A DNA stretch of 64,000 nucleotides from Adhaeribacter swui. GTDB lineage: Bacteria; Bacteroidota; Bacteroidia; Cytophagales; Hymenobacteraceae. The stretch spans positions 2,920,585 through 2,984,584 of the forward strand of contig NZ_CP055156.1 of NCBI RefSeq assembly GCF_014217805.1, in the 5' to 3' direction. Positions 2-14,627 of this stretch are shown here, one piece after another; positions within the stretch are counted from its first letter, which is position 1; every line of letters starts with the position of its first letter. Both the position numbers and the translations under genes were made by a program. The notes under the pieces were generated by a model. That model was not told the DNA's origin. It saw only the letters and a program-made list of their open reading frames with translations, and did no database searches.

Positions 2-829
<828 letters not shown>

Positions 830-997: not shown

Positions 998-2338
998 ATG
1001 AACAATACGGTTACAATAAAAGATGAAAGCAGTTCAGTTGGGGTAAGTTCTTTATCAAAGCGCAATACCACTATTTCGATTTTGATTATCGGGTTGCTGT
1101 TCTTTATTTTTGGATTTGTCTCCTGGGTAAATGCCATCCTGATTCCTTACTTTAAGATTGCCTGCGAGCTGACAAACTTCCAGTCTTATTTAGTAACGTT
1201 CGCCTTTTATATTTCCTATTTTGTTATGTCGGTGCCGGCGTCTTTTTTGCTCAAACGATTGGGTTTTAAAAAAGGCATGATGGCCGGCTTCTGGACTATG
1301 GCTACCGGAGCCTTTATTTTTATACCAGCCGCCTCTACCCGAACGTACGAAATATTTTTATTGGGTTTATTTACCTTGGGAGCCGGTTTAGCTATTCTGC
1401 AAACGGCGGCAAACCCGTACATTACCATTCTTGGCCCGAAAGAACGCGCTGCCCAGCGTATCAGTATTATGGGTATTTGTAATAAGGCGGCTGGCATTTT
1501 AGCGCCTATTATTTTTGCTGCTGTTATTTTAAAAGCTACCGATACAGACCTTTTTGCGCAGTTGGGCACCATGAGCGAAAGTCAGAAAGATGCTGCTTTA
1601 GATGAGTTAATTAGCCGGGTAATTCTTCCGTATAGTGTATTAGGCTGTGTGTTACTGGCTCTGGGTTTAATGGTGCGTTTTTCGCCGTTGCCTGAAATTA
1701 ATACCGAAGAAGAAACGGCCGAGGTAGCTACCGCCAACTCCGGAAAGACTAGTATTTTTCAGTTCCCGCACTTAATATTAGGGGCAATCAGTATCTTTTT
1801 GCACGTAGGCACTCAGGTTATCGCCATAGATACCATCATCGGGTATGCTGGCACCATGAACATCCCGTTAATGGAAGCAAAGGTATTTCCGTCTTATACC
1901 TTGTTTGCTACCATTTGCGGGTACATTCTGGGCATTATTTGTATACCGCGGTTTATCAGCCAGGTAAATGCTTTTCGGGTTTGCACCTTGCTGGGTACCA
2001 TTTTAACGCTGCTCGTTATTTTCGCAAAAGGCCAGGTTTCTTTTCTGGGGCACCAGGCAGATATTTCTATCTGGTTTATGGTTTTGCTGGGTTTGGCAAA
2101 CTCGCTGGTATGGGCGGGTATCTGGCCCCTGGCATTAGATGGCTTAGGCAAGTTTACGAAGCTGGGAGCTTCCATCATGATTATGGGCTTATGCGGAAAC
2201 GCGATTATGCCGCTTTTCTACGGTTATTTCGCCGATCTTTTAAATGAACGCGCCGCTTACTGGGTGCTATTTCCATGCTATCTCTATCTGGTGTTTTATG
2301 CGATGTACGGGCATAAAATCAGACGCTGGAGTATTTAG
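998..2338 (+). CDS. FucP/GluP-type sugar MFS transporter
   Basis: A 446-residue inner-membrane protein with about 12 hydrophobic segments, the first near residues 25-45. The family signature of fucose/glucose/N-acetylglucosamine:H+ symporters is visible: a VNAILIPYFK stretch in TM1, the SYLVTFAFYISYF segment in TM2, and QTAANPYITILGP in TM4. Two positions that are acidic and functionally important in E. coli FucP (Asp46, Glu135) are Ala46 and Gln135 here. Gln at the second position is normal for the GluP/NagP branch; Ala at the first is less usual. Its neighbours are a Gfo/Idh/MocA oxidoreductase upstream and a secreted hydrolase 20 bp downstream, so it probably imports the monosaccharide used by this operon. 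The exact sugar is unknown. Confidence 0.88.
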   Translation: MNNTVTIKDESSSVGVSSLSKRNTTISILIIGLLFFIFGFVSWVNAILIPYFKIACELTNFQSYLVTFAFYISYFVMSVPASFLLKRLGFKKGMMAGFWTMATGAFIFIPAASTRTYEIFLLGLFTLGAGLAILQTAANPYITILGPKERAAQRISIMGICNKAAGILAPIIFAAVILKATDTDLFAQLGTMSESQKDAALDELISRVILPYSVLGCVLLALGLMVRFSPLPEINTEEETAEVATANSGKTSIFQFPHLILGAISIFLHVGTQVIAIDTIIGYAGTMNIPLMEAKVFPSYTLFATICGYILGIICIPRFISQVNAFRVCTLLGTILTLLVIFAKGQVSFLGHQADISIWFMVLLGLANSLVWAGIWPLALDGLGKFTKLGASIMIMGLCGNAIMPLFYGYFADLLNERAAYWVLFPCYLYLVFYAMYGHKIRRWSI

Positions 2339-2358: not shown

Positions 2359-3573
2359 ATGGGAAACAGGGTAGTGGTGAAAGTAAAATTTTTAAAAATA
2401 GAGGCGAAACGAAAGTTAAAGTTATATAAGGTGCAGTATTATTTAAAAAACATTATCCCGCTTCTAATAATATTTCTGGCTCCTGACCTGAATGGGCAGA
2501 CTCTAAAGAAGGCTGAACGGCAGGCTATTTGGGAGCAAATAGCGCCTTATTTTTCACCACCTGATCTTTATAAAAATGATTTTGGGGGCTACCGTTCCCC
2601 ATTAAATTTTTATGATGGTAGCCCCGTAAAAACCAAGCAGGATTGGACTACGCGCCGGCAAGAAATTTTAAAAAAATGGCACGGATTAATGGGGGAGTGG
2701 CCGGCCTTCATTGAAAACCAGAAAATAGAAATACTGGAAACCATCCGCAAGGAAGGCTATACCCAGCACCGCATCCGCTTCAACTGGACCCCCACCGAAA
2801 AAACAACGGGTTACCTGTCAGTGCCCGATGGCAAAGGGAAAAAGCCGGCCGTTATTACCGTATTTTACGAACCGGAAACCGCTATTGGCGTAGGTGGTGC
2901 GCCCTTTCGGGACTTTGCCTTACAATTAACCCGAAGAGGCTTTGTAACGCTTTCTATCGGTACTACGGATGCTACCAAAGCTCAAACTTATTCCATTTAT
3001 TATCCTTCCATTGAAAATGCAACTGTTCAGCCACTTTCGATGCTGGGCTATGCGGCGGCCAATGCCTGGTATGTAGTAGCCGCGCTGCCCGAAGTAGATG
3101 CCAAGCGCATTGGTATTATGGGGCATTCGTTTGGGGGTAAGTGGGCCATGTTCGCTTCCTGCCTGTTCGACAAATTTGCCTGTGCCGTCTGGTCCGATCC
3201 GGGAATTGTGTTTGATGAAAAGAGGGAAAATGTTAATTACTGGGAACCCTGGTATTTAGGTTACCATCCTAAACCTTGGCGGAAAAGCGGAGTTATTTCG
3301 GTGGATAATCCGGCCAAAGGTTTGTACCCGCAAATGGTCAGAGAAGGATTTGATTTACACGAACTACATGCTTTAATGGCTCCGCGCCCGTTCCTGGTAT
3401 CGGGTGGGTCCGAAGACCCTGTGGAACGGTGGGTGCCCCTAAATCATACGGTTAAGGTTAATAAATTATTGGGTCAAGATAGCCGGGTGGCGATGACTAA
3501 CCGGCCGGCGCACTCACCTAATGCCGATTCTAACGAAAAGGCCTACTTATTTCTCGAATATTTCCTGAAGTAA
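2359..3573 (+). CDS. Secreted alpha/beta hydrolase (acetyl-xylan esterase / dienelactone hydrolase-like)
   Basis: A 404-residue protein with a hydrophobic export segment near residues 30-46 (IIPLLIIFLAP). The nucleophile elbow is GHSFGG at residues 255-260, with Ser257 as probable nucleophile. A later APRPFLVSGGSEDP stretch would carry the acid, and a His near the C-terminus (NRPAHSPN) may complete the triad. The first ATG gives an unusually long basic N-terminus; an in-frame GTG at 2431 would give a conventional signal peptide and may be the true start. The gene begins 20 bp after the sugar transporter, so the two are probably co-transcribed. A periplasmic or surface esterase removing acyl groups from a glycan fits the context, but the substrate is not shown by the sequence. 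Confidence 0.75.
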   Translation: MGNRVVVKVKFLKIEAKRKLKLYKVQYYLKNIIPLLIIFLAPDLNGQTLKKAERQAIWEQIAPYFSPPDLYKNDFGGYRSPLNFYDGSPVKTKQDWTTRRQEILKKWHGLMGEWPAFIENQKIEILETIRKEGYTQHRIRFNWTPTEKTTGYLSVPDGKGKKPAVITVFYEPETAIGVGGAPFRDFALQLTRRGFVTLSIGTTDATKAQTYSIYYPSIENATVQPLSMLGYAAANAWYVVAALPEVDAKRIGIMGHSFGGKWAMFASCLFDKFACAVWSDPGIVFDEKRENVNYWEPWYLGYHPKPWRKSGVISVDNPAKGLYPQMVREGFDLHELHALMAPRPFLVSGGSEDPVERWVPLNHTVKVNKLLGQDSRVAMTNRPAHSPNADSNEKAYLFLEYFLK

Positions 3574-3626: not shown

Positions 3627-5240
3627 ATGCTTTATTTAAAAAACAGGCGAATAGTTCGTTTCTCATCATTTTTCATTTTCCTGTTTATTCTTTCCTGTTC
3701 CACAATAACTACTGGCCCGGGTTCAATACATTCCAATTTATCGGCTATAAAAACACCCATTGAGCAGCAATTTATTCTGGATTCCACCAAGGTAGGGGTA
3801 AGTACCATTATAGATAAACTTAATGTGCCTTGGGAAATAACCTGGGGACCCGATAACTGGATTTGGTATACCGAACAAAGTGGCACCGTTAGTAAAGTAA
3901 ACCCAACTACCGGCGAAAAAAAGCTACTATTAACTATTCCGGAAGTATATCGCTACCGCACGCTGGGCTTGTTGTGTATGGCTTTGCATCCTAATTTTAA
4001 AAAACAACCTTTTGTTTTCTTGAATTACACTTTTAAGCAAGATACAAAATTAACCTCCCGGTGGGTGCGGTACACCTATAGCAACGATATACTAAGCAAC
4101 CCGTTGATTTTAATGGAAGTACCTGCCGATGTGGGGCATAATGGTTCGCGCATGGCTTTTGCCCCCGATGGCAAATTAATGCTGGCTACCGGCGATGCCG
4201 ATGTGAACAATAATGAGCAAAATGGAGGTAATGCACAGAAAGATAATGTGTTAAGCGGTAAAATATTGCGGATTAACATAGATGGAACCGTGCCCCGAGA
4301 TAACCCTATTCCGGGCAATCCGGTTTGGGCGAAAGGCTTCCGGGTTCCCCAGGGTATGGTATATGCGGCTAACGGAAATTTATACACCGCCGAGCATGGC
4401 GATGCCACGGATGATGAAATTAACCTAATTACTAAAAGCGGTAACTATGGCTACCCGAACGTGGCAGGTAAATGCAACCTCCCTCACGAAAAAACTTTTT
4501 GTGACCAGCATGCCGTAATTGAACCTCTAATGGCCTGGACGCCCACTATCGCCCCGGCAGGTATTGATTATTACAACGCTACTGCAATTCCGGAGTGGCA
4601 GAATTCTCTATTGCTTACTACGCTAAAAGAAACCGATTTTCGGGTACTGAAATTGAATAAAGCCGGCAACACCATAGTTTCAGAACAAATTTACCTGGAT
4701 AAAGAATTTGGGCGCTTACGTGATGTATGCGTAGCCCCTAACGGGGATATTTATATTTCTACCAGCAACCGGGACTGGAACCCGGCTAAAGGTTTCCCGC
4801 AGGAAAATGATGACCGGATTATTCGCTTATTCAAAATAAAAGAAAACGATACGTATGCATCAAATTTTAAAGATATAGCATCTACTGAAACTAAACCCAA
4901 TGAAATATTGCCCAATGCCGGGGCACAGGTTTATACCAAATACTGTGTTTCCTGCCACAAAGAAGATGGCAATGGGGTTGCCGGCACCTTTCCGCCTTTA
5001 ACGGAAGCGGAGCAAGTTACGGGAGATAAACAGAGGTTAATTTCTATTGTATTACAGGGTTTAGCCGGCCCGATAATAGTTAAAGGCAAAGAATACAACC
5101 AGCAGATGCCGGCTTTCCATTTCTTAAGCGATCCCGAGATTGCCGATGTACTTACCTACGTCCGGGCTGAATTTGGCAAAGGAGCCAGTTCCATCTCTAG
5201 AGAAGAGGTAGAAAAAGCCAGGTTGGGAAAAGCAAATTAG
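3627..5240 (+). CDS. PQQ-dependent sugar dehydrogenase (glucose/sorbosone dehydrogenase type) with C-terminal cytochrome c
   Basis: A 537-residue predicted lipoprotein: a hydrophobic N-terminus ends in FILSC with Cys24 as the likely lipidation site. Residues about 50-420 form a glucose/sorbosone-dehydrogenase beta-propeller, with the family stretches GHNGSRMAFAPDG, LRINIDGTVPRDNP and LYTAEHGDATDDE. A class I cytochrome c follows, with CVSCH at residues 440-444 and a candidate axial Met in QQMPAFHF near residue 493. The fusion suggests that electrons from aldose oxidation pass from PQQ to heme inside one protein and then to the respiratory chain. It lies in the same-strand gene run, 53 bp after the hydrolase. 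PQQ and substrate are family inferences; no PQQ synthesis genes are in the window. Confidence 0.85.
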   Translation: MLYLKNRRIVRFSSFFIFLFILSCSTITTGPGSIHSNLSAIKTPIEQQFILDSTKVGVSTIIDKLNVPWEITWGPDNWIWYTEQSGTVSKVNPTTGEKKLLLTIPEVYRYRTLGLLCMALHPNFKKQPFVFLNYTFKQDTKLTSRWVRYTYSNDILSNPLILMEVPADVGHNGSRMAFAPDGKLMLATGDADVNNNEQNGGNAQKDNVLSGKILRINIDGTVPRDNPIPGNPVWAKGFRVPQGMVYAANGNLYTAEHGDATDDEINLITKSGNYGYPNVAGKCNLPHEKTFCDQHAVIEPLMAWTPTIAPAGIDYYNATAIPEWQNSLLLTTLKETDFRVLKLNKAGNTIVSEQIYLDKEFGRLRDVCVAPNGDIYISTSNRDWNPAKGFPQENDDRIIRLFKIKENDTYASNFKDIASTETKPNEILPNAGAQVYTKYCVSCHKEDGNGVAGTFPPLTEAEQVTGDKQRLISIVLQGLAGPIIVKGKEYNQQMPAFHFLSDPEIADVLTYVRAEFGKGASSISREEVEKARLGKAN

Positions 5241-5326: not shown

Positions 5327-6592
5327 ATGGATAACAGAGTTACGCAGGAACCAGTTACGGTTTCGCCCCAAACAGGAGAGTCCGGAGTTTTTACCTCCCT
5401 TAAAAAAGTCTTATTATCCTTAGGTCCGGGTATAATTACGGCGGCTTTGGTTTTTGGGCCAAGTAAAATGACCATTACTTCTAAATTAGGGGCGGTTTAT
5501 GGCTATTCGTTGCTTTGGATAATTGCCGTAGCTATATTTTTCATGACGGTTTTTACGGTTATGGGAGCGCGCATTGGCGTTGCGGCTAAGCAATCCTTAT
5601 TGGCTACTATCCGGTTAAAATGGGGAAAAGCAGCGGCCATTTTTATTGGTTTCGGGATATTTTTAGTAGCCACCTCTTTTCAAGCCGGAAACTCCATAGG
5701 CGTAGGTATTGCTATTGCAGAAGCTAATGGTACTTCACCGGTTATTTGGATTATTGTTTTTAATGTTATTGGCATTGCCTTACTATTTTTCCAGTCCTTC
5801 TACAAAGTATTAGAAAAACTGATGATCTTCCTGATTGGATTGATGCTTTTTTCTTTTATCACCACCTTGTTTTTAGCTGATCCGGACTGGAGTGCGGTAG
5901 CTGTTGGTTTTGTACCATCCATTCCGGAAGGATCCTTGGGTTTAGTGATAGCCTTTACGGCTTCTGCTTTTTCCATTGTAGGCGCTTTATACCAATCGTA
6001 CCTGGTGCAGGAGCGCATCAAGCAAAATCCGGAAATTAAAGAAACCAGCCGCAACAGTATAACCGGCATTTTTATTCTCGGCCTCATGAGTGCTATTGTA
6101 TTGATTTGTGCGGCAGCAGTTTTAAATCCCCAAGGCATTAAAGTTACCAGTGCCTCCGATATGGCAAAGGCGCTGGAACCTCTATTTGGAAGCTATGCTT
6201 CTACTTTATTTTTAACCGGATTATTTGGGGCTGCCTTCTCTTCCTTAGTAGGAAATGCCTCTTTAGGAGGTACTTTATTAGGCGATGCCTTGGGCTATGG
6301 AAGCCAGTTAACTTCCAAAATGGTGCGCTTTTTAATTGCTTTAGTAATGATTATTGGAGCCTGCATCGCCATTGCTTTCGGTAAATTGCCTCTGGAGTTA
6401 ATTGTATTTGCCCAAAGTGTTACCATTTTTTTAGTGCCTTTTATTGGATTAGCCATGTATGTGATCGGGAATGATGTTAAAATTATGGGTTCCCATGTAA
6501 ACTCCACTCCCGTGAAAATAATGGGTGCTTTTGGCTTGCTGATTTTATTTGTTTTGGCTGCAAGTAATGTAAATGAGTTATTTTTAAAATAA
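5327..6592 (+). CDS. Nramp-fold membrane transporter lacking the canonical metal-binding motifs
   Basis: A 421-residue membrane protein with about 11 hydrophobic segments. The Nramp fold is recognisable from GPGIITAALV in TM1 and AVYGYSLLW in TM2. The TM1 motif DPGN, whose Asp and Asn bind the metal in true Nramps, reads GPSK here (Gly44, Lys47). The TM6 motif MPH reads IVG (Ile217-Gly219), followed by the conserved ALY. All the main Mn/Fe ligands are therefore missing, and it is unlikely to carry divalent transition metals. It is followed after 13 bp by an epimerase-like gene and then, 3 bp further on, by a DHDPS-type aldolase, so an organic substrate such as a sugar acid is more plausible. 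Automatic annotation as a metal transporter would be misleading. Confidence 0.8.
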   Translation: MDNRVTQEPVTVSPQTGESGVFTSLKKVLLSLGPGIITAALVFGPSKMTITSKLGAVYGYSLLWIIAVAIFFMTVFTVMGARIGVAAKQSLLATIRLKWGKAAAIFIGFGIFLVATSFQAGNSIGVGIAIAEANGTSPVIWIIVFNVIGIALLFFQSFYKVLEKLMIFLIGLMLFSFITTLFLADPDWSAVAVGFVPSIPEGSLGLVIAFTASAFSIVGALYQSYLVQERIKQNPEIKETSRNSITGIFILGLMSAIVLICAAAVLNPQGIKVTSASDMAKALEPLFGSYASTLFLTGLFGAAFSSLVGNASLGGTLLGDALGYGSQLTSKMVRFLIALVMIIGACIAIAFGKLPLELIVFAQSVTIFLVPFIGLAMYVIGNDVKIMGSHVNSTPVKIMGAFGLLILFVLAASNVNELFLK

Positions 6593-6605
6593 TTGAAATT
6601 TAGAT

Positions 6606-7622
6606 ATGAGTGAATTAGAATTATTAGAGCAAGAGTTATTAAAACCTTCAGAGGCTTTAATTTCTGATTTATATGATATAGAAGGCGATATTATATTGCT
6701 GGGGGTAGGTGGAAAAATGGGGCCGAGTATGGCTCGTTTAGCCAAGCAAGCCGTTGACCAGGCCGGATTAAAAAAGCGAATTATCGGTGTTTCCCGCTTT
6801 TCTGATCCGGAAACCCAGGCCGAATTAGAAGCAGAGGGCATCGAAACTTTTGCGGCGGATTTGTTAAACGAAAGCCATTTAGCTGCCCTACCAGATGCAG
6901 CCAATGTAATTTATTTGGCAGGTACTAAATTTGGTACTACGGGTAAAGAAGCTTTTACCTGGGCCATGAATGCGTATTTGCCGGGCCGTGTTGCCGAACG
7001 GTATAAAAACTCCCGGATTGTAGCTTTCTCTACCGGTAATGTTTATCCGTTTGTACCGGTAACTTCTGGTGGCCCATCCGAAGACCAGGCAGCGGCACCG
7101 GTGGGAGAGTATGGTCAATCATGTTTAGGCCGGGAGCGTATTTTTCAATACTTCTCCGATAAATATCAGATTCCGACTTTAATCTATCGTCTAAATTATG
7201 CCGTTGATTTTAAATATGGCGTGTTGCTGGAAATAGCGAAATCAGTGAACGAAGGCCGACCAATAGATTTGACTACCGGAAATGTAAACGTTATCTGGCA
7301 GGGAGATGCCAATGAAATAGCTATTCGGGCTTTAAAACACTGCGACGTACCGGCTAAAATTTTAAATGTTACCGGGCCTGAAACTGTTTCCGTGAAGTGG
7401 CTGGCTGAACAATTTGGTTTATTATTGGGCAAAGAGCCAAACTTTATGGGGGAAGTGCAGCAAACTGCTTTGTTAAGCAACGCTTCGGAGGCGCATCGCT
7501 TATTTGGTTACCCCAGAGTAACCTTACGGCAAATAATGGATATTACGGTTACCTGGTTACAGGGCGGCGGTAAAATATCCAACAAACCAACTCATTTCCA
7601 GGAACGAAACGGCAAGTTTTAA
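6606..7622 (+). CDS. NAD-dependent epimerase/dehydratase-like protein with altered active site
   Basis: A 338-residue extended short-chain dehydrogenase. A Rossmann start is visible at residues 27-40 (GDIILLGVGGKMGP), then VIYLAGTKFG, then FSTGNVYPF with the usual Ser/Thr position. In the catalytic YxxxK motif Tyr169 is present, but the +4 position is Cys173 (YGQSCLGRE) instead of Lys. Classical epimerases and dehydratases need this Lys, so the chemistry may differ or the protein may only bind nucleotide or ligand. It is tightly packed between the Nramp-fold gene (13 bp) and the aldolase gene (3 bp), almost certainly in one transcript with them. The family assignment is firm; the function is unknown. 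Confidence 0.8.
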   Translation: MSELELLEQELLKPSEALISDLYDIEGDIILLGVGGKMGPSMARLAKQAVDQAGLKKRIIGVSRFSDPETQAELEAEGIETFAADLLNESHLAALPDAANVIYLAGTKFGTTGKEAFTWAMNAYLPGRVAERYKNSRIVAFSTGNVYPFVPVTSGGPSEDQAAAPVGEYGQSCLGRERIFQYFSDKYQIPTLIYRLNYAVDFKYGVLLEIAKSVNEGRPIDLTTGNVNVIWQGDANEIAIRALKHCDVPAKILNVTGPETVSVKWLAEQFGLLLGKEPNFMGEVQQTALLSNASEAHRLFGYPRVTLRQIMDITVTWLQGGGKISNKPTHFQERNGKF

Positions 7623-7625
7623 TAC

Positions 7626-8702
7626 ATGAAATCAAACACCTTAAAACCCGAAATTAAAGCTTTACTGCACGAAGGAACGGTTATTCCCGCGCATCCTTTG
7701 GCCTTAAATGCAGCCCGGCAGTTAGATGAGCAGCGCCAGCGCGGCTTAACCCGGTACTATATGGCGGCTGGTGCCGGAGGAGTAGCAGTTGGCGTGCATT
7801 CAACTCAATTTGAAATCCGGAACCCGGAAGTTAATTTGTATGAAACCGTATTAAAACTGGCCGCCGAAGAAATAGAAGAAGCGCAGTTAACTCGTCCGTT
7901 TATAAAAGTTGCCGGTATTGTTGGCCCTACCGCGCAAGCTACGGAAGAAGCCGAGATAGCTTTGAAGTACGGTTATGATTTGGGCTTATTAAGCATGGGT
8001 GGCTTACAAAGCTGGACCGAAGATGAAATATTGGACCGGGTAAAAGCCGTAGCTGACATTATTCCTGTTTTTGGCTTTTACCTGCAGCCCAGCGTAGGTG
8101 GCCGCATCTTTACTTATGACTTCTGGTTTAAGTTTGCGCAGATACCCAATGTACAAGCTATTAAAGTGGCCGCTTTTAACCGCTACCAAACCCTAGATGT
8201 GGTGCGGGCAGTGTGCGCCTCGCCTCGTCGGGATGAAATTGCTTTATATACCGGGAACGATGATAATATTATTGCCGATTTACTAACAACTTATAGATTT
8301 GAAGTTGACGGAATTGTAAGACAAAAGGAATTTGTCGGCGGTTTGTTAGGCCATTGGGCCGTTTGGACAAAGAAAGCAGTTGAATTACTAGCTGAGGTAA
8401 AAAGTATGAAACAGGTAGGAAACGCATTTGGTTTCTCAGAATTGCTGACCCGCAATATCGAAGTTACGGATATGAACGCTGCTATTTTTGATCCGGCTCA
8501 TGGTTTTCATGGCTGTATTCCGGGCATTCACGAAGTTCTGCGCCGCCAGGGTTTATTAGAAGGACGTTGGTGCCTCAATCCGGAAGAGGAATTATCGCCC
8601 GGGCAAATGGAGGAAATTGACCGCGTGTGTGCTGCTTATCCGCATCTGGTGGATGATGCTTTTGTGCGGGATCTCTTAGAAAGAGAAATGCTGACAAAAT
8701 AA
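7626..8702 (+). CDS. Dihydrodipicolinate synthase/N-acetylneuraminate lyase family aldolase
   Basis: A 358-residue (beta/alpha)8 class I aldolase, somewhat longer than DapA (about 290). The Schiff-base Lys is probably Lys180 in QAIKVAAFNRY, and the catalytic Tyr of the YxxP motif is Tyr152 in FGFYLQPSVGGR. An N-terminal GAGGVAVGVHSTQF stretch is where the family binds the pyruvate-type carboxylate. The family condenses or cleaves 2-keto acids (DHDPS, NAL, KDG aldolases, 5-keto-4-deoxyglucarate dehydratase). It starts 3 bp after the epimerase-like gene, so the two are translationally close. The context argues for sugar-acid catabolism and not lysine biosynthesis. The substrate is unknown. Confidence 0.82.
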   Translation: MKSNTLKPEIKALLHEGTVIPAHPLALNAARQLDEQRQRGLTRYYMAAGAGGVAVGVHSTQFEIRNPEVNLYETVLKLAAEEIEEAQLTRPFIKVAGIVGPTAQATEEAEIALKYGYDLGLLSMGGLQSWTEDEILDRVKAVADIIPVFGFYLQPSVGGRIFTYDFWFKFAQIPNVQAIKVAAFNRYQTLDVVRAVCASPRRDEIALYTGNDDNIIADLLTTYRFEVDGIVRQKEFVGGLLGHWAVWTKKAVELLAEVKSMKQVGNAFGFSELLTRNIEVTDMNAAIFDPAHGFHGCIPGIHEVLRRQGLLEGRWCLNPEEELSPGQMEEIDRVCAAYPHLVDDAFVRDLLEREMLTK

Positions 8703-8829: not shown

Positions 8830-9591
8830 ATGAATAACGAAAGCATAACGGAAGCTTTAAAAGTAGATATTTCTGCTACTCGTAGTGAGTTGGGTTTAAA
8901 GGCGGTAAAATTGGTTGCCAGCAAAATAATAGAATTATTAGACCAGCAGCAATTCGTGAATATCATTTTTGCCGCGGCCCCCTCTCAAAACGAATTTTTA
9001 GAAGAGCTATCTAAAAATGATGCAATTGCCTGGGAACGCATCAATGCCTTTCATATGGATGAATATGTAGGTCTGCCGGAAGATGCGCCCCAGCGTTTTG
9101 GTAATTTTTTAAAAAATCGTTTATTCGGTAAAGTCCCATTCCGTTCTGTAAATTACCTGAATGGATTAGCCGAAAATTTAAAAGAAGAGTGCGCCCGATA
9201 TACTGCCTTATTAGAATCTCATCCAACGGATATTGTGTGCATGGGGATTGGTGAGAATACCCATATAGCCTTTAACGATCCGCACGTGGCCTATTTTAAC
9301 GATCCGCAGCTAGTAAAAATAGTGGATTTAGACGAAGCTTGCCGGCAGCAGCAAGTAAACGATGGATGTTTTACTGCATTAAATGAAGTGCCAATCTATG
9401 CTTTAACGTTAACAGTGCCTGCTTTAATGCGCGCCAAATACGCATTTTGTATGGTTCCTGGACCAACTAAAGCGCAGGCCATTTACCATACCCTGCAAAG
9501 TGATATTCAGGAATTATACCCGTCAACCATACTGAGAAAACACCCGGAAGCTATTTTATTTATTGATAAAGAAAGCAGCGCATTGTTATAG
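8830..9591 (+). CDS. Divergent glucosamine-6-phosphate deaminase-like protein (NagB paralogue)
   Basis: A 253-residue protein of the NagB/6-phosphogluconolactonase fold. FHMDEY (Asp77, Glu78) and a GIGEN..HIAFND block (His145, Asp150) match the NagB active site. Two deviations stand out. The usual Gly before the catalytic His is Thr144, and the phosphate-binding loop, GxxTGxTP in NagB, is AAAPSQNEF around residues 48-56. A canonical loop would clamp the sugar phosphate, so binding may be altered. It closes the plus-strand operon and is followed 40 bp later by a strong terminator. A second, better conserved NagB lies at 34,439. It could be a deaminase for another hexosamine phosphate or a lactonase-like enzyme. 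Confidence 0.75.
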   Translation: MNNESITEALKVDISATRSELGLKAVKLVASKIIELLDQQQFVNIIFAAAPSQNEFLEELSKNDAIAWERINAFHMDEYVGLPEDAPQRFGNFLKNRLFGKVPFRSVNYLNGLAENLKEECARYTALLESHPTDIVCMGIGENTHIAFNDPHVAYFNDPQLVKIVDLDEACRQQQVNDGCFTALNEVPIYALTLTVPALMRAKYAFCMVPGPTKAQAIYHTLQSDIQELYPSTILRKHPEAILFIDKESSALL

Positions 9592-10033: not shown

Positions 10034-12298
10034 ATGCTCCTAAACCGAAATAGAAACATTTGGTTCACGTTGTTTTGTGCTATTATTCTTTCTTATAATG
10101 GACAGCGTGCGTTTGCTGCAATAAATAAAAACATAGGCTCGGTTGTGCAGGGCAATGACTCTTTAAGTTTTATTTCCCCGCTCCGTCTCCGGGGTTTTAG
10201 CCTGTTGCCAGCTCCGCAACAAGTAGAATTGGGCGCTAAGAATATTGTGGTAGATGGGTCGTGGGTAATAGATTCAAAAATAGGCAAAGAAGATATTGCC
10301 GTGCGGAGATTATTGGAAGGTGCCTCGGAGCTTCATGGATTGGATTTCGCGAAAAAAGGAGGAAAAAAGATTACGCTTGCCGTTAAACCCGGAACGGTAA
10401 AAGCCACGAATGATCCGGCGCTCAACGAACAAGCTTATTTGCTGGCGATCACCGCCAATAAGATCGAAATTACTGGTAACAGCCCAACCGGACTTTTTTA
10501 CGGGGTTCAAAGCTTATTGCAATTACTCCGGCGGGATCAGGCCGGTCGGCTCATTGCTCCGGAAGCGGTGATTCGCGACTGGCCAGCGGTGCAATTGCGG
10601 TTTGTGCATTGGGATACGAAACATCACCAGAAACGCATGGAAACCATGAAGCGACTGATCGACTGGCACGCCTTCTTTAAGGTAAACATGGTTGCCCTGG
10701 AGATTGAAGATAAATACGAATTCCCACGGCATCCGATTATTGGTGCTCCTGGCGCCTACACCAAAGCAGAGTTACAGGAGCTAACCCGTTACGCGCTGGA
10801 GCGACACATTCAGATTGTTCCCAATATTCAGGCGCCAGCCCACATGGCACACGTCCTGAAACATAAAGAATTTGAGCATTTAAAGGCTGAGCCTGAATCT
10901 AATTACCAGGCCTGCATGTGCGACGACGAAGCTATTAACCTGATCTTCGATATGTACCAGGATATGATTGATGCCACACCCGGTGTCGACTATTTTCTGG
11001 CTTCTACGGATGAAGTTTATTATGCCGGTATCTGTGCCAAATGTAAGCGGCCTTATAATCCGGAAAACCGCAGTTTGGCCTGGGCTGAGTTTGCCGTAAA
11101 AGCCCACGATTGGCTAGCAAAACGTAATCGCCGGATGATTGCCTGGGTGGAGTATCCCTTGCTGCCGCAGGATATTTCGCGCCTGCCATCGGATATAATT
11201 AATGGCATAATGGGCGAAGACAAGGAATTTTTGGACAATCAGCGAAAAATAGGAATGCGGCAACTTGCCTACAGTTCTATCCAAGGGGGCGAACCGCTTT
11301 TCTCCGATTATTCCAGGTATCCAAATTATGTAAGCACCGTTCGCGACGGCATTAAGGCGGGCGCTAACCCCATCGGAAGTTTTGCTGCCGCCTGGGACGA
11401 CAGCGGGTTGCACGAAGAAGTTTTTCATTTGGGTTGGGCTACTATTACGCAATATGCCTGGAACCCTTACGGACCGGCTTATGAACAAACCATGGCCGAT
11501 TTTTTAGATGTGTTCTACGGGGCTAATAGTCCGGATATAGCCTCTGCCTATGCACTCCTGAATGAAGGCGCTCAATTTTTTAGAAGAGGATGGGATGAGG
11601 TAACCAGCACTGAGCGCCCTTCCAGTTACGGCAACAGTTTCGGCAAAGGAATTGGCACCGAACGAATGGATGATTTTCTCCGGCTCCCGGAAATACCGCT
11701 AGATAAAAATTTAAAATCCAATACTAAATATACCACCGACCACAGCAAGATTATTGCGCAGGCCGAAGAATTAGAATTAAAAAATGACGAGTTAATCAAC
11801 AAGCTTGCCCGGTACATGACACAGGTTGACCGCAACCGTTATAGTCTGGAGGTGTACCTATCAATTGCTTACCTGGAGCGTTACTTTATTAAAACCGTAC
11901 TTGCGTTTCGCGATGCCGAGCGCACCTTTGGGCGTGCTCAGTCGGCTTCGGCGGCCGGAAAACACGAAGAAGCAGTTGGGCTCCTGATAGAAGTCAGCAA
12001 CAAGATCGGCGCTCTCGACAGTTGGGGTAAGGGGATGTGGGAAAACGTTACGGAGGTATGGGAAAAAAGCCGTTATGAAAAAAACCGTGACGTAAACGGA
12101 CGTAAATTTGTGCATGTGCAGGACGATGTAAAAGATCATTTTGCTGACCGCCGGAAAGGCCTGGATTATATGATTGCCCCTTTTCAACGGACAAATTTGC
12201 CGGGCTGGCAGAATAAGCTGAACGAGAGAATAAAACAGTACGCGGAGGCAAACAAAGTTCCGGTGAAAGGACTGGCTGAAAAACGCCTGGAAGACTAA
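10034..12298 (+). CDS. Family 20-like glycoside hydrolase (beta-N-acetylhexosaminidase-type)
   Basis: A 754-residue exported protein with a signal-like N-terminus ending near AFAA (residue 29). Residues about 55-180 form the GH20b zincin-like domain, ending in GLFYGVQSLLQLL and the usual RDWP junction. The TIM barrel follows, with Asp326-Glu327 in FLASTDEVYY, matching the Asp-Glu pair of GH20 enzymes that use the substrate N-acetyl group in catalysis. Four Cys (294, 296, 333, 336) flank this site and could bind a metal. The C-terminal 250 residues are mostly helical and not recognised. It has its own terminator and is not in a tight operon. It probably releases terminal GlcNAc or GalNAc from oligosaccharides in the periplasm. 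Confidence 0.75.
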   Translation: MLLNRNRNIWFTLFCAIILSYNGQRAFAAINKNIGSVVQGNDSLSFISPLRLRGFSLLPAPQQVELGAKNIVVDGSWVIDSKIGKEDIAVRRLLEGASELHGLDFAKKGGKKITLAVKPGTVKATNDPALNEQAYLLAITANKIEITGNSPTGLFYGVQSLLQLLRRDQAGRLIAPEAVIRDWPAVQLRFVHWDTKHHQKRMETMKRLIDWHAFFKVNMVALEIEDKYEFPRHPIIGAPGAYTKAELQELTRYALERHIQIVPNIQAPAHMAHVLKHKEFEHLKAEPESNYQACMCDDEAINLIFDMYQDMIDATPGVDYFLASTDEVYYAGICAKCKRPYNPENRSLAWAEFAVKAHDWLAKRNRRMIAWVEYPLLPQDISRLPSDIINGIMGEDKEFLDNQRKIGMRQLAYSSIQGGEPLFSDYSRYPNYVSTVRDGIKAGANPIGSFAAAWDDSGLHEEVFHLGWATITQYAWNPYGPAYEQTMADFLDVFYGANSPDIASAYALLNEGAQFFRRGWDEVTSTERPSSYGNSFGKGIGTERMDDFLRLPEIPLDKNLKSNTKYTTDHSKIIAQAEELELKNDELINKLARYMTQVDRNRYSLEVYLSIAYLERYFIKTVLAFRDAERTFGRAQSASAAGKHEEAVGLLIEVSNKIGALDSWGKGMWENVTEVWEKSRYEKNRDVNGRKFVHVQDDVKDHFADRRKGLDYMIAPFQRTNLPGWQNKLNERIKQYAEANKVPVKGLAEKRLED

Positions 12299-13448: not shown

Positions 13449-14627
13449 ATGCAACACCTCGGGCTGGATTTTCGGACTTTAAATGAAAAAGGTGCATTCC
13501 ACACGGCAAAAGAGATAGCGCAGCAACCAGAGATATGGTTAAGCGTTTGGGAGATGATTCATAAAAACAGATCAGAAATCAATAAATTTCTGGATAAAGT
13601 CTTACCAAAAACAAAGCGGATTATATTAACAGGCGCCGGCACCAGTGCATTTATTGGCCGTTCCTTGTCAGGGGTATTCCAGCGAAATACTAAAATCATA
13701 ACAGATGCCATATCCACCACTGACTTAGTATCTGATCCGAAAGATTACCTGGACCCGGAAACGCCTTTACTGATGATTTCCTTTGCCCGATCGGGAAACA
13801 GTCCGGAAAGTATAGCCGCGGTTGTGCTGGCAGATACCCTTTGCGATACCTGCTTTCATTTGATTATTACCTGCAATAGCGATGGCGAACTTGCTGGGTA
13901 TGGCAGGGCTGATGAAGAGCGCCGATTCGTGATAACCTTACCCAGTGAAGCGAATGATAAGAGCCTTGCCATGACCAGCAGTTATACTGGAATGTTATTG
14001 GCCGGCATTCTTATTTCACAAATGCAAAACATTGAAGCTAACCGGGCTATGGTTGATATTTTAAGTAGTTACGGTAGCAAAATTATTAATGATTACAGTG
14101 CAGATTTTCGTCTGATTGCGGAAAAAGACTTTAAGCGCGCCGTTTTTCTGGGTTCCGGGCCTTTACAGGGTACAGCCACTGAATCGCATTTAAAACTTCA
14201 GGAGCTGACGGACGGCAAAATTATATGTAAAGATGATTCTTTTCTCGGTTTCCGACATGGTCCGAAAGCGGTTGTAGATAATACCACCTTGGTAGTATAT
14301 ATTTTTTCAAGCGACAGCTATGTTTTAAAATATGAAATTGACATGGTGGCCTCCATGAAAAAAGGAAACCAGCCACTGCTGGAGATTGGAATTATGGAAA
14401 AGCAAATCCCAGAGCTTCATCTGGATTATACTTTCTGCTATTCTGAAGAAAACCTGGGCGTACCTAAAGAATTTCTGTCGGTGTGCAGCGTGCTGCCTGC
14501 CCAATTAATTGCCTTTTTTAAATCTGTTCAATTGGGGCTCCGGCCAGATTCGCCCTCGGAAACAGGTGCTATTTCGCGGGTAGTGGAAGAGTTTCCGATC
14601 TATGAACTAACAGATAATCATATCTAA
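13449..14627 (+). CDS. agaS: SIS-domain sugar isomerase, AgaS-like (galactosamine-6-phosphate deaminase/isomerase type)
   Basis: A 392-residue cytoplasmic protein with two SIS domains and a length close to E. coli AgaS (384). The first domain has LTGAGTSAFIG at residues 60-70 and SFARSGNSPES at 111-121, the phosphosugar-binding Ser/Thr clusters. The second has FLGSGPLQG and FLGFRHGPKAVVD. AgaS-type enzymes deaminate and isomerise galactosamine-6-phosphate to tagatose-6-phosphate. A PfkB kinase and a class II ketose-bisphosphate aldolase lie 3-6 kb downstream, which supports that route. A GlmS-like isomerase without the glutaminase domain, or a FrlB-like deglycase, are less likely alternatives. 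The gene starts a plus-strand group with the ACT-domain gene 67 bp downstream. Confidence 0.82.
   Translation: MQHLGLDFRTLNEKGAFHTAKEIAQQPEIWLSVWEMIHKNRSEINKFLDKVLPKTKRIILTGAGTSAFIGRSLSGVFQRNTKIITDAISTTDLVSDPKDYLDPETPLLMISFARSGNSPESIAAVVLADTLCDTCFHLIITCNSDGELAGYGRADEERRFVITLPSEANDKSLAMTSSYTGMLLAGILISQMQNIEANRAMVDILSSYGSKIINDYSADFRLIAEKDFKRAVFLGSGPLQGTATESHLKLQELTDGKIICKDDSFLGFRHGPKAVVDNTTLVVYIFSSDSYVLKYEIDMVASMKKGNQPLLEIGIMEKQIPELHLDYTFCYSEENLGVPKEFLSVCSVLPAQLIAFFKSVQLGLRPDSPSETGAISRVVEEFPIYELTDNHI

Follow-up and report, generated by a model that had tools for sequence, protein, structure and literature searches.

A conserved gene unit of a ligand-depleted Nramp-fold carrier, an epimerase-like protein and a distant class I aldolase in Adhaeribacter swui: a candidate pathway for sugar acids

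According to PMC8806188 (in excerpt), an Asp is the universally conserved position of SLC11, and the clades carry DxxN-AxxM (canonical Nramp/MntH), DxxG-TxxA/T (NRMT) or DxxN-AxxT (NRAT). One family member, PxpT of Corynebacterium glutamicum, has been described as a 5-oxoproline carrier, with metal transport left possible by the authors (PMC13274462, in excerpt), and an Nramp gene labelled as a metal-ion transporter has been drawn in alginolytic systems of Alteromonas (PMC6431674, in excerpt). Acids of amino sugars are handled by the chitin-oxidation (Ong) pathway of Pseudoalteromonas, which relies on a sodium:solute symporter (SSS), a D-aminoacylase-like OngB, a pyridoxal-phosphate-type OngC and the kinase KdgK (PMC9537276, in excerpt). 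Here, we analyse a stretch of 64,000 nucleotides from the bacteroidote Adhaeribacter swui (contig NZ_CP055156.1, positions 2,920,585 to 2,984,584; hereafter the window), in which three adjacent genes encode an Nramp-fold carrier, an epimerase-like protein of the extended short-chain dehydrogenase/reductase (SDR) type and a class I aldolase with the fold of N-acetylneuraminate lyase and dihydrodipicolinate synthase (NAL/DHDPS).

We read the three genes as one sugar-acid catabolic unit, the acid probably being derived from an N-acetyl-hexosamine: the carrier would import it, the aldolase would cleave it and the SDR would act alongside. We give this reading a probability of about 0.52. The genes lie on the same strand, separated by 13 bp (carrier to SDR) and 3 bp (SDR to aldolase), as a preliminary description of this DNA had stated (Table 1).

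Table 1. The unit and surrounding genes of the window
Feature	Position	Strand	Remarks
Nramp-fold carrier, own clade	5327..6592	+	421 aa; TM1 (first transmembrane helix) site G44-P-S-K47 replacing D-P-G-N
Extended-SDR (epimerase-like) protein	6606..7622	+	338 aa; Rossmann glycines and Tyr169 kept, Cys173 at the catalytic Lys position
Class I pyruvate-type aldolase, NAL/DHDPS fold	7626..8702	+	358 aa; Lys180, Tyr152, VH(S/T)TQ motif
Gfo/Idh/MocA oxidoreductase, C-terminal part	182..829	+	frame open to the window start
Major facilitator superfamily (MFS) sugar transporter	998..2338	+	NagP the best NCBIfam model, 382.5 bits (cut-off 625, missed)
Alpha/beta hydrolase	2359..3573	+	weakly like glucuronyl and acetyl-xylan esterases; five Pfam matches, all below cut-off
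Glucose/sorbosone (pyrroloquinoline quinone, PQQ) dehydrogenase (GSDH) with C-terminal cytochrome c	3627..5240	+	
NagB-like protein	8830..9591	+	Pfam Glucosamine_iso; under every NCBIfam cut-off
GH20 hexosaminidase-like protein	10034..12298	+	
SIS-domain sugar isomerase, AgaS-like	13449..14627	+	370.9 bits (cut-off 529.2, missed)

A scan of one genome per species confirmed 236 related loci. Rates given below refer to the best 80 of these 236, that is, to the closest relatives, comprising 46 loci from Bacteroidota and 34 from Bacillota (mostly Paenibacillus), 12 of the 80 being shorter than 13 kb; adding four loci from a draw across the phylum gives a set of 84, with L012 and L048 counted once. 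The neighbourhood sample thus spans Bacteroidota and Bacillota. By tblastn, the epimerase-like gene adjoins the aldolase gene in all 84 loci and in both phyla. The gap between the two is -56 to 149 bp in 82 of 83 loci measured, and that between carrier and SDR is -4 to 36 bp in 34 of 37; these are the gap sizes of a single operon. The linkage survives rearrangement, as shown by one genome (G544) in which the carrier gene comes last, after those of SDR and aldolase. One distant aldolase relative (L005, 34% identity) stands in reversed gene order with the SDR on its other side, and is perhaps of sister function.

Profile searches of 395 genomes of the window's class gave the same picture. The aldolase was found in five genomes, the SDR in five at E 1e-40 and the carrier in five at 382 bits or more, the next carrier match scoring 192 bits (27 genomes at E 1e-30). 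All three families occur in the identical five genomes (G000, G588, G158, G544 and G162). Chance adjacency was therefore rejected, given this shared occurrence and the invariable linkage of the pair, and the rare co-occurrence that would have told against the preliminary description was not observed. In the phylum draw the aldolase was present in 5 of 247 genomes, one of them that of the distant L005; the unit is rare and patchy. The idea of a three-gene unit needs amending in one respect. The SDR-aldolase pair is universal, but the carrier lies outside this core: a carrier match of at least 100 residues occurs in 40 of the 84 loci, and among the 80 in 38 of 46 from Bacteroidota against none of 34 from Bacillota. 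Two of the carrier-less Bacteroidota loci are incomplete, L020 ending inside the SDR gene and L069 retaining only the end of the carrier (64 residues).

The carrier belongs to the Nramp family by Pfam (PF01566, 230.2 bits against a cut-off of 29.8) and by overall sequence, and its phmmer matches in the PDB are MntH chains. An alignment of 37 loci and the window was made, after L049, L053 and L067 had been dropped for a stop in the extended stretch; counts at the TM1 site are out of 36, the partial L002 and L004 having no letters there. Compared with the D-P-G-N of the MntH reference, the Asp is replaced by Gly in 36 of 36 carriers, and the metal-site Asn by Lys in 32 and by Ser in four (L037, L047, L048 and L079). 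The Met and His of TM6 are likewise lost, whereas the equivalent of the TM10 Gln is retained. The TM6 alignment is uncertain by one residue, placing Met230 onto Ser216 or Ile217, neither of which is a metal ligand by motif. The unit carriers thus read GxxK or GxxS without the Met, and none of the Nramp, NRMT and NRAT motifs listed in the PMC8806188 excerpt is present. As far as sequence can tell, the site does not look fit for Mn or Fe, and a Lys at the place of a ligand would suit an anion better than a bare dication. The loss of the metal ligands, proposed from the window alone, therefore extends across the family.

Four Nramp-family genes were found in the A. swui genome. One encodes a canonical MntH (L086) with DPGN and MPH kept, adjoining a protein that looks DtxR-like by eye; the unit carrier as the housekeeping Mn/Fe carrier was rejected, as the MntH is encoded elsewhere in the genome. 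Of the other two, one lacks the site Asp and Asn and follows a PxpA-like gene (by eye) after 2 bp (L088:614-2583), and the other, flanked by genes for an alpha/beta hydrolase and a DUF1080-like protein (both identified by eye), encodes a highly divergent protein whose site reads GSGE (L089:1321-2718).

In a tree, the unit carriers form a single group (support 100/100). Carriers with a GPGT site form a separate group (99/99), in which a PxpA-type (LamB/YcsF) neighbour occurs in seven of nine loci inspected among 12 (L100, L101, L102, L104, L106, L107 and L109; that of L101 confirmed by Pfam); in L103 and L110 none was seen within the stretch covered. These PxpA-linked carriers fit PxpT. The unit resembles the PxpT/YcsG system (pxpTABC) in that an Nramp-family protein shares its locus with organic-acid enzymes, but differs in clade, in partners and in site (GPSK/FSIVGA here versus GPGT/VVPYN). 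No pxpABC linkage appeared among the scanned cluster representatives of the unit loci, where no search was aimed at PxpA itself. The proposal of an organic transporter with an Nramp fold thus holds in so far as the site looks unfit for Mn/Fe and a separate MntH exists, but not as a novelty, since PxpT is a precedent (PMC13274462, in excerpt).

A third group, with a GTGS site, joins the unit carriers with support 95/86; the join includes the long-branch L089, and the tree is rooted at its midpoint, so the sister status is provisional. Among its 11 loci, five were classed by family models and the remainder by similarity or eye. Two (L156 and L157) hold a PfkB kinase nearest to models of 2-keto-3-deoxygluconate (KDG) kinase, below cut-off, and an aldolase for its 6-phosphate (KDPG) above cut-off; the Nramp gene of both sits directly after the KDPG aldolase gene. 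In L153, a 2-keto-3-deoxygalactonokinase (DGOK) and a KDPG-type aldolase stand beside the carrier, and in L149 and L152 chondroitinase-B-family lyases (the PL6 class). Thus 5 of 11 GTGS carriers lie, by family models, in alginate/uronate or 2-keto-3-deoxy-galactonate loci. An SDR and SusD accompany the carrier in L147 and L154 (by similarity or eye), and a NagB-like gene in L148 and L155, that of L155 also appearing in the family-model scan. A gluconokinase-type domain fused to an NADP-dependent 6-phosphogluconate dehydrogenase is also encoded beside the Nramp gene of L149 (9019-10908). With no Asp ligand in its carriers, the GTGS group would be a second sugar-acid-linked Nramp clade. The likeness to the window lies in a carrier of this kind placed inside a 2-keto-3-deoxy sugar-acid operon; the alginate/uronate loci differ in having a kinase and a KDPG aldolase, an aldolase of another family and no such SDR-aldolase pair.

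The aldolase matched no Pfam or NCBIfam family at E 0.001, and its phmmer match in the PDB is an N-acetylneuraminate lyase (8u8w, E 8e-7). Its AlphaFold model (mean pLDDT 93.3) has the NAL/DHDPS barrel fold (Foldseek E 5.8e-14, TMq 0.73); over the 50 best fold matches, TMq is 0.67-0.73 and identity 14-21%, and the protein is about 50 residues longer than most of these. In an alignment of 83 loci and the window (L051 dropped for a stop in the extended stretch), the Schiff-base Lys180 is invariant (84 of 84 rows), and Tyr152 is missing only from the distant L005, which aligns a Glu there (83 of 84). With this one exception, the catalytic residues noted in the window are thus kept. His58, Asn211, Asp212 and Asp213 are also found in all 84 rows, and Arg65, Asn185 and Arg186 in 83. 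GxxGE is the substrate motif of the NAL/DHDPS superfamily. In the present family the GSTGE of NAL is replaced by VH(S/T)TQ (82-84 of 84 rows per position; L005 alone keeps GE), which implies that the substrate end is unlike that of known superfamily members.

The epimerase-like protein passes the Pfam Epimerase model weakly (PF01370, 27.1 bits against 20.9). The TerB NADP-dependent oxidoreductase is its phmmer match in the PDB (E 3e-4), and TerB (TMq 0.75-0.78) and nucleotide-sugar epimerases are nearest in fold to its AlphaFold model (mean pLDDT 91.2). It shares with these the fold, the Rossmann glycines and the Tyr, and differs in the YxxxK pair: Tyr169 is found in 85 of 85 rows, and Lys at position 173 in none (Cys 71, Thr 9, Ser 4, Ile 1). 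The missing catalytic Lys of the preliminary description is thus a family trait. The protein has invariant residues of its own (Lys108, Arg176 and Glu177, 85 of 85 rows), and Arg64, located where the second strand ends (84 of 85), would be compatible with NADP. A decayed epimerase was rejected, as the Lys loss is family-wide and other positions are invariant.

From these residues and folds, the following sequence of steps may be proposed. The PQQ dehydrogenase, Gfo/Idh enzymes and an enolase-superfamily protein would generate the acid; the carrier, its metal ligands replaced, would import it as an organic anion; and dehydration or oxidation would yield a 2-keto-3-deoxy acid. The aldolase would form a Schiff base through Lys180 and split an unphosphorylated 2-keto-3-deoxy sugar acid into pyruvate and a short aldehyde. 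The SDR would bind NAD(P) and act on substrate or product of the aldolase, reduction or oxidation of the aldehyde being favoured. An M20 deacylase would strip the acetyl group and a serine ammonia-lyase (SDA) the amino group. The substrate is probably unphosphorylated, because three kinase queries (two KdgK-like, one DGOK) and three KDPG-aldolase queries found no relative in the 80 unit loci; these queries come from L153, L156 and L157, so that their hits in GTGS loci are mostly self-hits and only the absence from unit loci counts. Other queries did match unit loci: a lyase in L076, an SDR in L044, L078 and L085, and an SMP-30 protein in L019.

The later steps draw on neighbouring genes, which were counted by tblastn in the 80 unit loci and in 20 control windows of 17 kb from three unit-carrying genomes. 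An M20 deacylase was matched in 26 of 80 loci, SDA in 20, Gfo/Idh in 33 and the enolase superfamily in 11, each against 0 of 20 controls; the NagB-like protein (13 of 80), NagA (9), GH20 (8) and SIS (4) were also without control matches. For GSDH the counts were 15 of 80 and 1 of 20, and for NagP/MFS 9 of 80 and 1 of 20. In the 11 GTGS loci the same queries matched GSDH once, NagB-like twice and GH20 once, and nothing else. The upstream neighbours of the unit in the window are as previously described (GSDH with cytochrome c, alpha/beta hydrolase, sugar MFS transporter), the last scoring 244.5 bits with the NCBIfam gluP subfamily model (cut-off 202.6); in 14 of 85 mapped units, window included, a GSDH relative precedes the unit in the chain of same-strand genes. 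Loci with an M20 match number 15 among the 46 from Bacteroidota and 11 among the 34 from Bacillota, and the M20 proteins come from two NCBIfam subfamilies, amidohydrolase and ArgE/DapE. SDA matches fall in 19 Bacillota loci and a single Bacteroidota locus (L014, 28%).

Together, M20, SDA and the genes related to amino sugars give a hint that the sugar acid carries an acetamido group. The preliminary description had suggested oxidised sugars, aldonic or uronic acids; sugar acids do appear the likely class of substrate, in view of the uronate and 2-keto-3-deoxy-galactonate loci of the GTGS clade, but the neighbours point to amino-sugar derivatives rather than to plain acids. Two further families were seen beside the pair: one of about 440 residues with a borderline GdpP-GGDEF-like match, tied to it in 22 of 80 loci (Bacillota, e.g. 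L041:5563-6882), and a xylose-isomerase-like TIM barrel fused to a NagB-like domain directly upstream of it (L063:5288-6934; a protein of the same cluster occurs in L083).

Two concrete routes fit this reading, one from N-acetylglucosaminic acid (GlcNAc1A) through glucosaminate to KDG, the other from an acetamido uronate or aldarate to an N-acetylserine precursor, and the evidence makes no choice between them. In the first, the PQQ dehydrogenase would oxidise N-acetylglucosamine (GlcNAc) to GlcNAc1A, which the carrier would import; M20 would then give glucosaminate, SDA would give KDG, and the aldolase would release pyruvate and glyceraldehyde. The scheme follows the Ong pathway in its logic but uses other enzymes, and as a hypothesis the unit shares with it an amino-sugar acid, deacetylation, deamination and a KDG-type intermediate (PMC9537276, in excerpt). 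The window provides GSDH, a NagP-like transporter, GH20 and a NagB-like gene, M20 and SDA are linked to the pair, and a GlcNAc1A route via KDG has been published for Pseudoalteromonas. As that source has it, however, the published route resembles D-amino-acid degradation and phosphorylates KDG, whereas SDA is an L-serine enzyme family, and here an Nramp fold, M20 and an Fe-S SDA stand in place of the Ong proteins, with a linked KDG kinase in 0 of 80 loci (query-based). Moreover, no SDA match occurs in the 15 Bacteroidota loci with M20. Taken on its own, this route is unlikely.

In the second route, a 2-acetamido uronate or aldarate would be dehydrated to a 2-keto-3-deoxy acid, which the aldolase would cleave into pyruvate and N-acetyl-aminomalonate semialdehyde; the SDR would reduce the latter to N-acetylserine, and M20 and serine ammonia-lyase would convert this to acetate, ammonia and a second pyruvate. 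The SDA pair of L041, the one pair scanned, lies above the L-serine ammonia-lyase equivalog cut-offs, and the unit-locus copy is the sole SDA alpha match in six of nine Bacillota genomes searched. Of the remaining three, G595 has two alpha copies, both in unit loci, and the other two have a second SDA copy with no unit gene within 1.5 kb on either side. An SDA match somewhere in the genome was found in 9 of 10 Bacteroidota genomes searched, six of them over the cut-off. The two M20 subfamilies and the enolase-superfamily neighbours also count for this route, and Arg186 of the aldolase could bind a second carboxylate. Against this, the genome of L044 has M20 beside the pair but no SDA match, the loci share no dehydratase, a substrate of uronate type has to be assumed, and the logic leans on neighbours of a minority of loci. 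We regard this second route, by itself, as somewhat less likely still. As a separate observation, Paenibacillus ihumii carries two SDR-aldolase loci (L023 and L045), each with its own SDA pair, the alphas being 53% and 82% identical to that of L041.

A further possibility, distinctly improbable, is that the carrier has retained the transport of a divalent cation (Mn, Mg or a metal-acid complex) and provides the neighbouring enzymes with a cofactor. Its place in the Pfam Nramp family and the retained TM10 Gln would suit this explanation, and for YcsG, a PxpT relative from Bacillus, Mn import has been reported (PMC10448178, in excerpt). Opposed to it are the Gly at the position that is universally Asp in SLC11 (PMC8806188, in excerpt), the loss of the TM6 ligands, the Lys in most sites, the separate MntH of the same genome and the nearest carrier clade, which occurs in sugar-acid loci.

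The report on YcsG also weighs against the sugar-acid reading, as do several observations from the loci themselves. The position of Lys47 is not always basic: besides the four rows with Ser, the further members L098 and L099 have Ser and Thr. The carrier is replaceable where it is unmatched, namely in every Bacillota locus (counted over locus stretches, not whole genomes) and in six Bacteroidota loci (L043, L044, L070, L073, L077 and L084), for which at least 2 kb upstream of the SDR, again not the whole genome, was covered. The carrier and SDR profiles were built from aldolase-linked loci, which favours co-occurrence, although the score gap is wide. M20 occurs in about a third and SDA in a quarter of the loci only, and the neighbour counts are not independent, since the loci are related, many are from Paenibacillus, the queries were drawn from unit loci, and three genomes supplied all controls. 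Finally, two of the 11 GTGS loci (L150 and L151) show no sugar context by eye.

Least probable of all is the synthetic direction, in which the aldolase would build and the unit would make an acidic sugar instead of degrading one: NAL/DHDPS superfamily enzymes run in both directions, the SDR resembles nucleotide-sugar epimerases, and DegT-type aminotransferases, common in biosynthesis, occur in 7 of 81 clustered loci, but the SusCD, PQQ dehydrogenase, hydrolase, deacylase and ammonia-lyase neighbours fit catabolism, and no nucleotidyl- or glycosyltransferase was seen among the scanned cluster representatives.

Operons for the breakdown of sugar acids are well known, and there is a precedent for an organic carrier from the Nramp family; new, as far as we have seen, are the altered site of the carrier, the families to which aldolase and SDR belong, and the way in which these elements are combined. 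Literature searches returned no description of the three-gene unit, as judged by titles and abstract openings, and among the matches listed for Nramp carriers none was on organic substrates by title; the main text of PMC9007349 contains neither 'Nramp' nor 'dihydrodipicolinate'. The preliminary description knew of no published pathway of this composition, and none was found in the literature searched. In the most far-reaching version, to which we give little credence, a branch of the Nramp fold would have exchanged divalent metals for organic anions as substrates, a Lys taking the place of a ligand, and would feed a pathway in which a new class I aldolase family cleaves an acetamido sugar acid into pyruvate and an N-acetylserine precursor, M20 and serine ammonia-lyase completing the breakdown.

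Curated Pfam and NCBIfam models miss the aldolase and recognise the SDR only weakly, yet the two are adjacent in every locus examined across two phyla. Carriers of this kind, including that of the unit, are called Nramp-family divalent metal transporters by NCBIfam-type model annotation. Should the transport of carboxylates extend to several clades (for 5-oxoproline, uronate products and the substrate of the present unit), metal-uptake annotations in Bacteroidota would be partly wrong and the metal-transporter fold would have an organic-acid arm. The change in the site is small and sharp, from Asp/Asn to Gly/Lys, and is thus testable by mutation.

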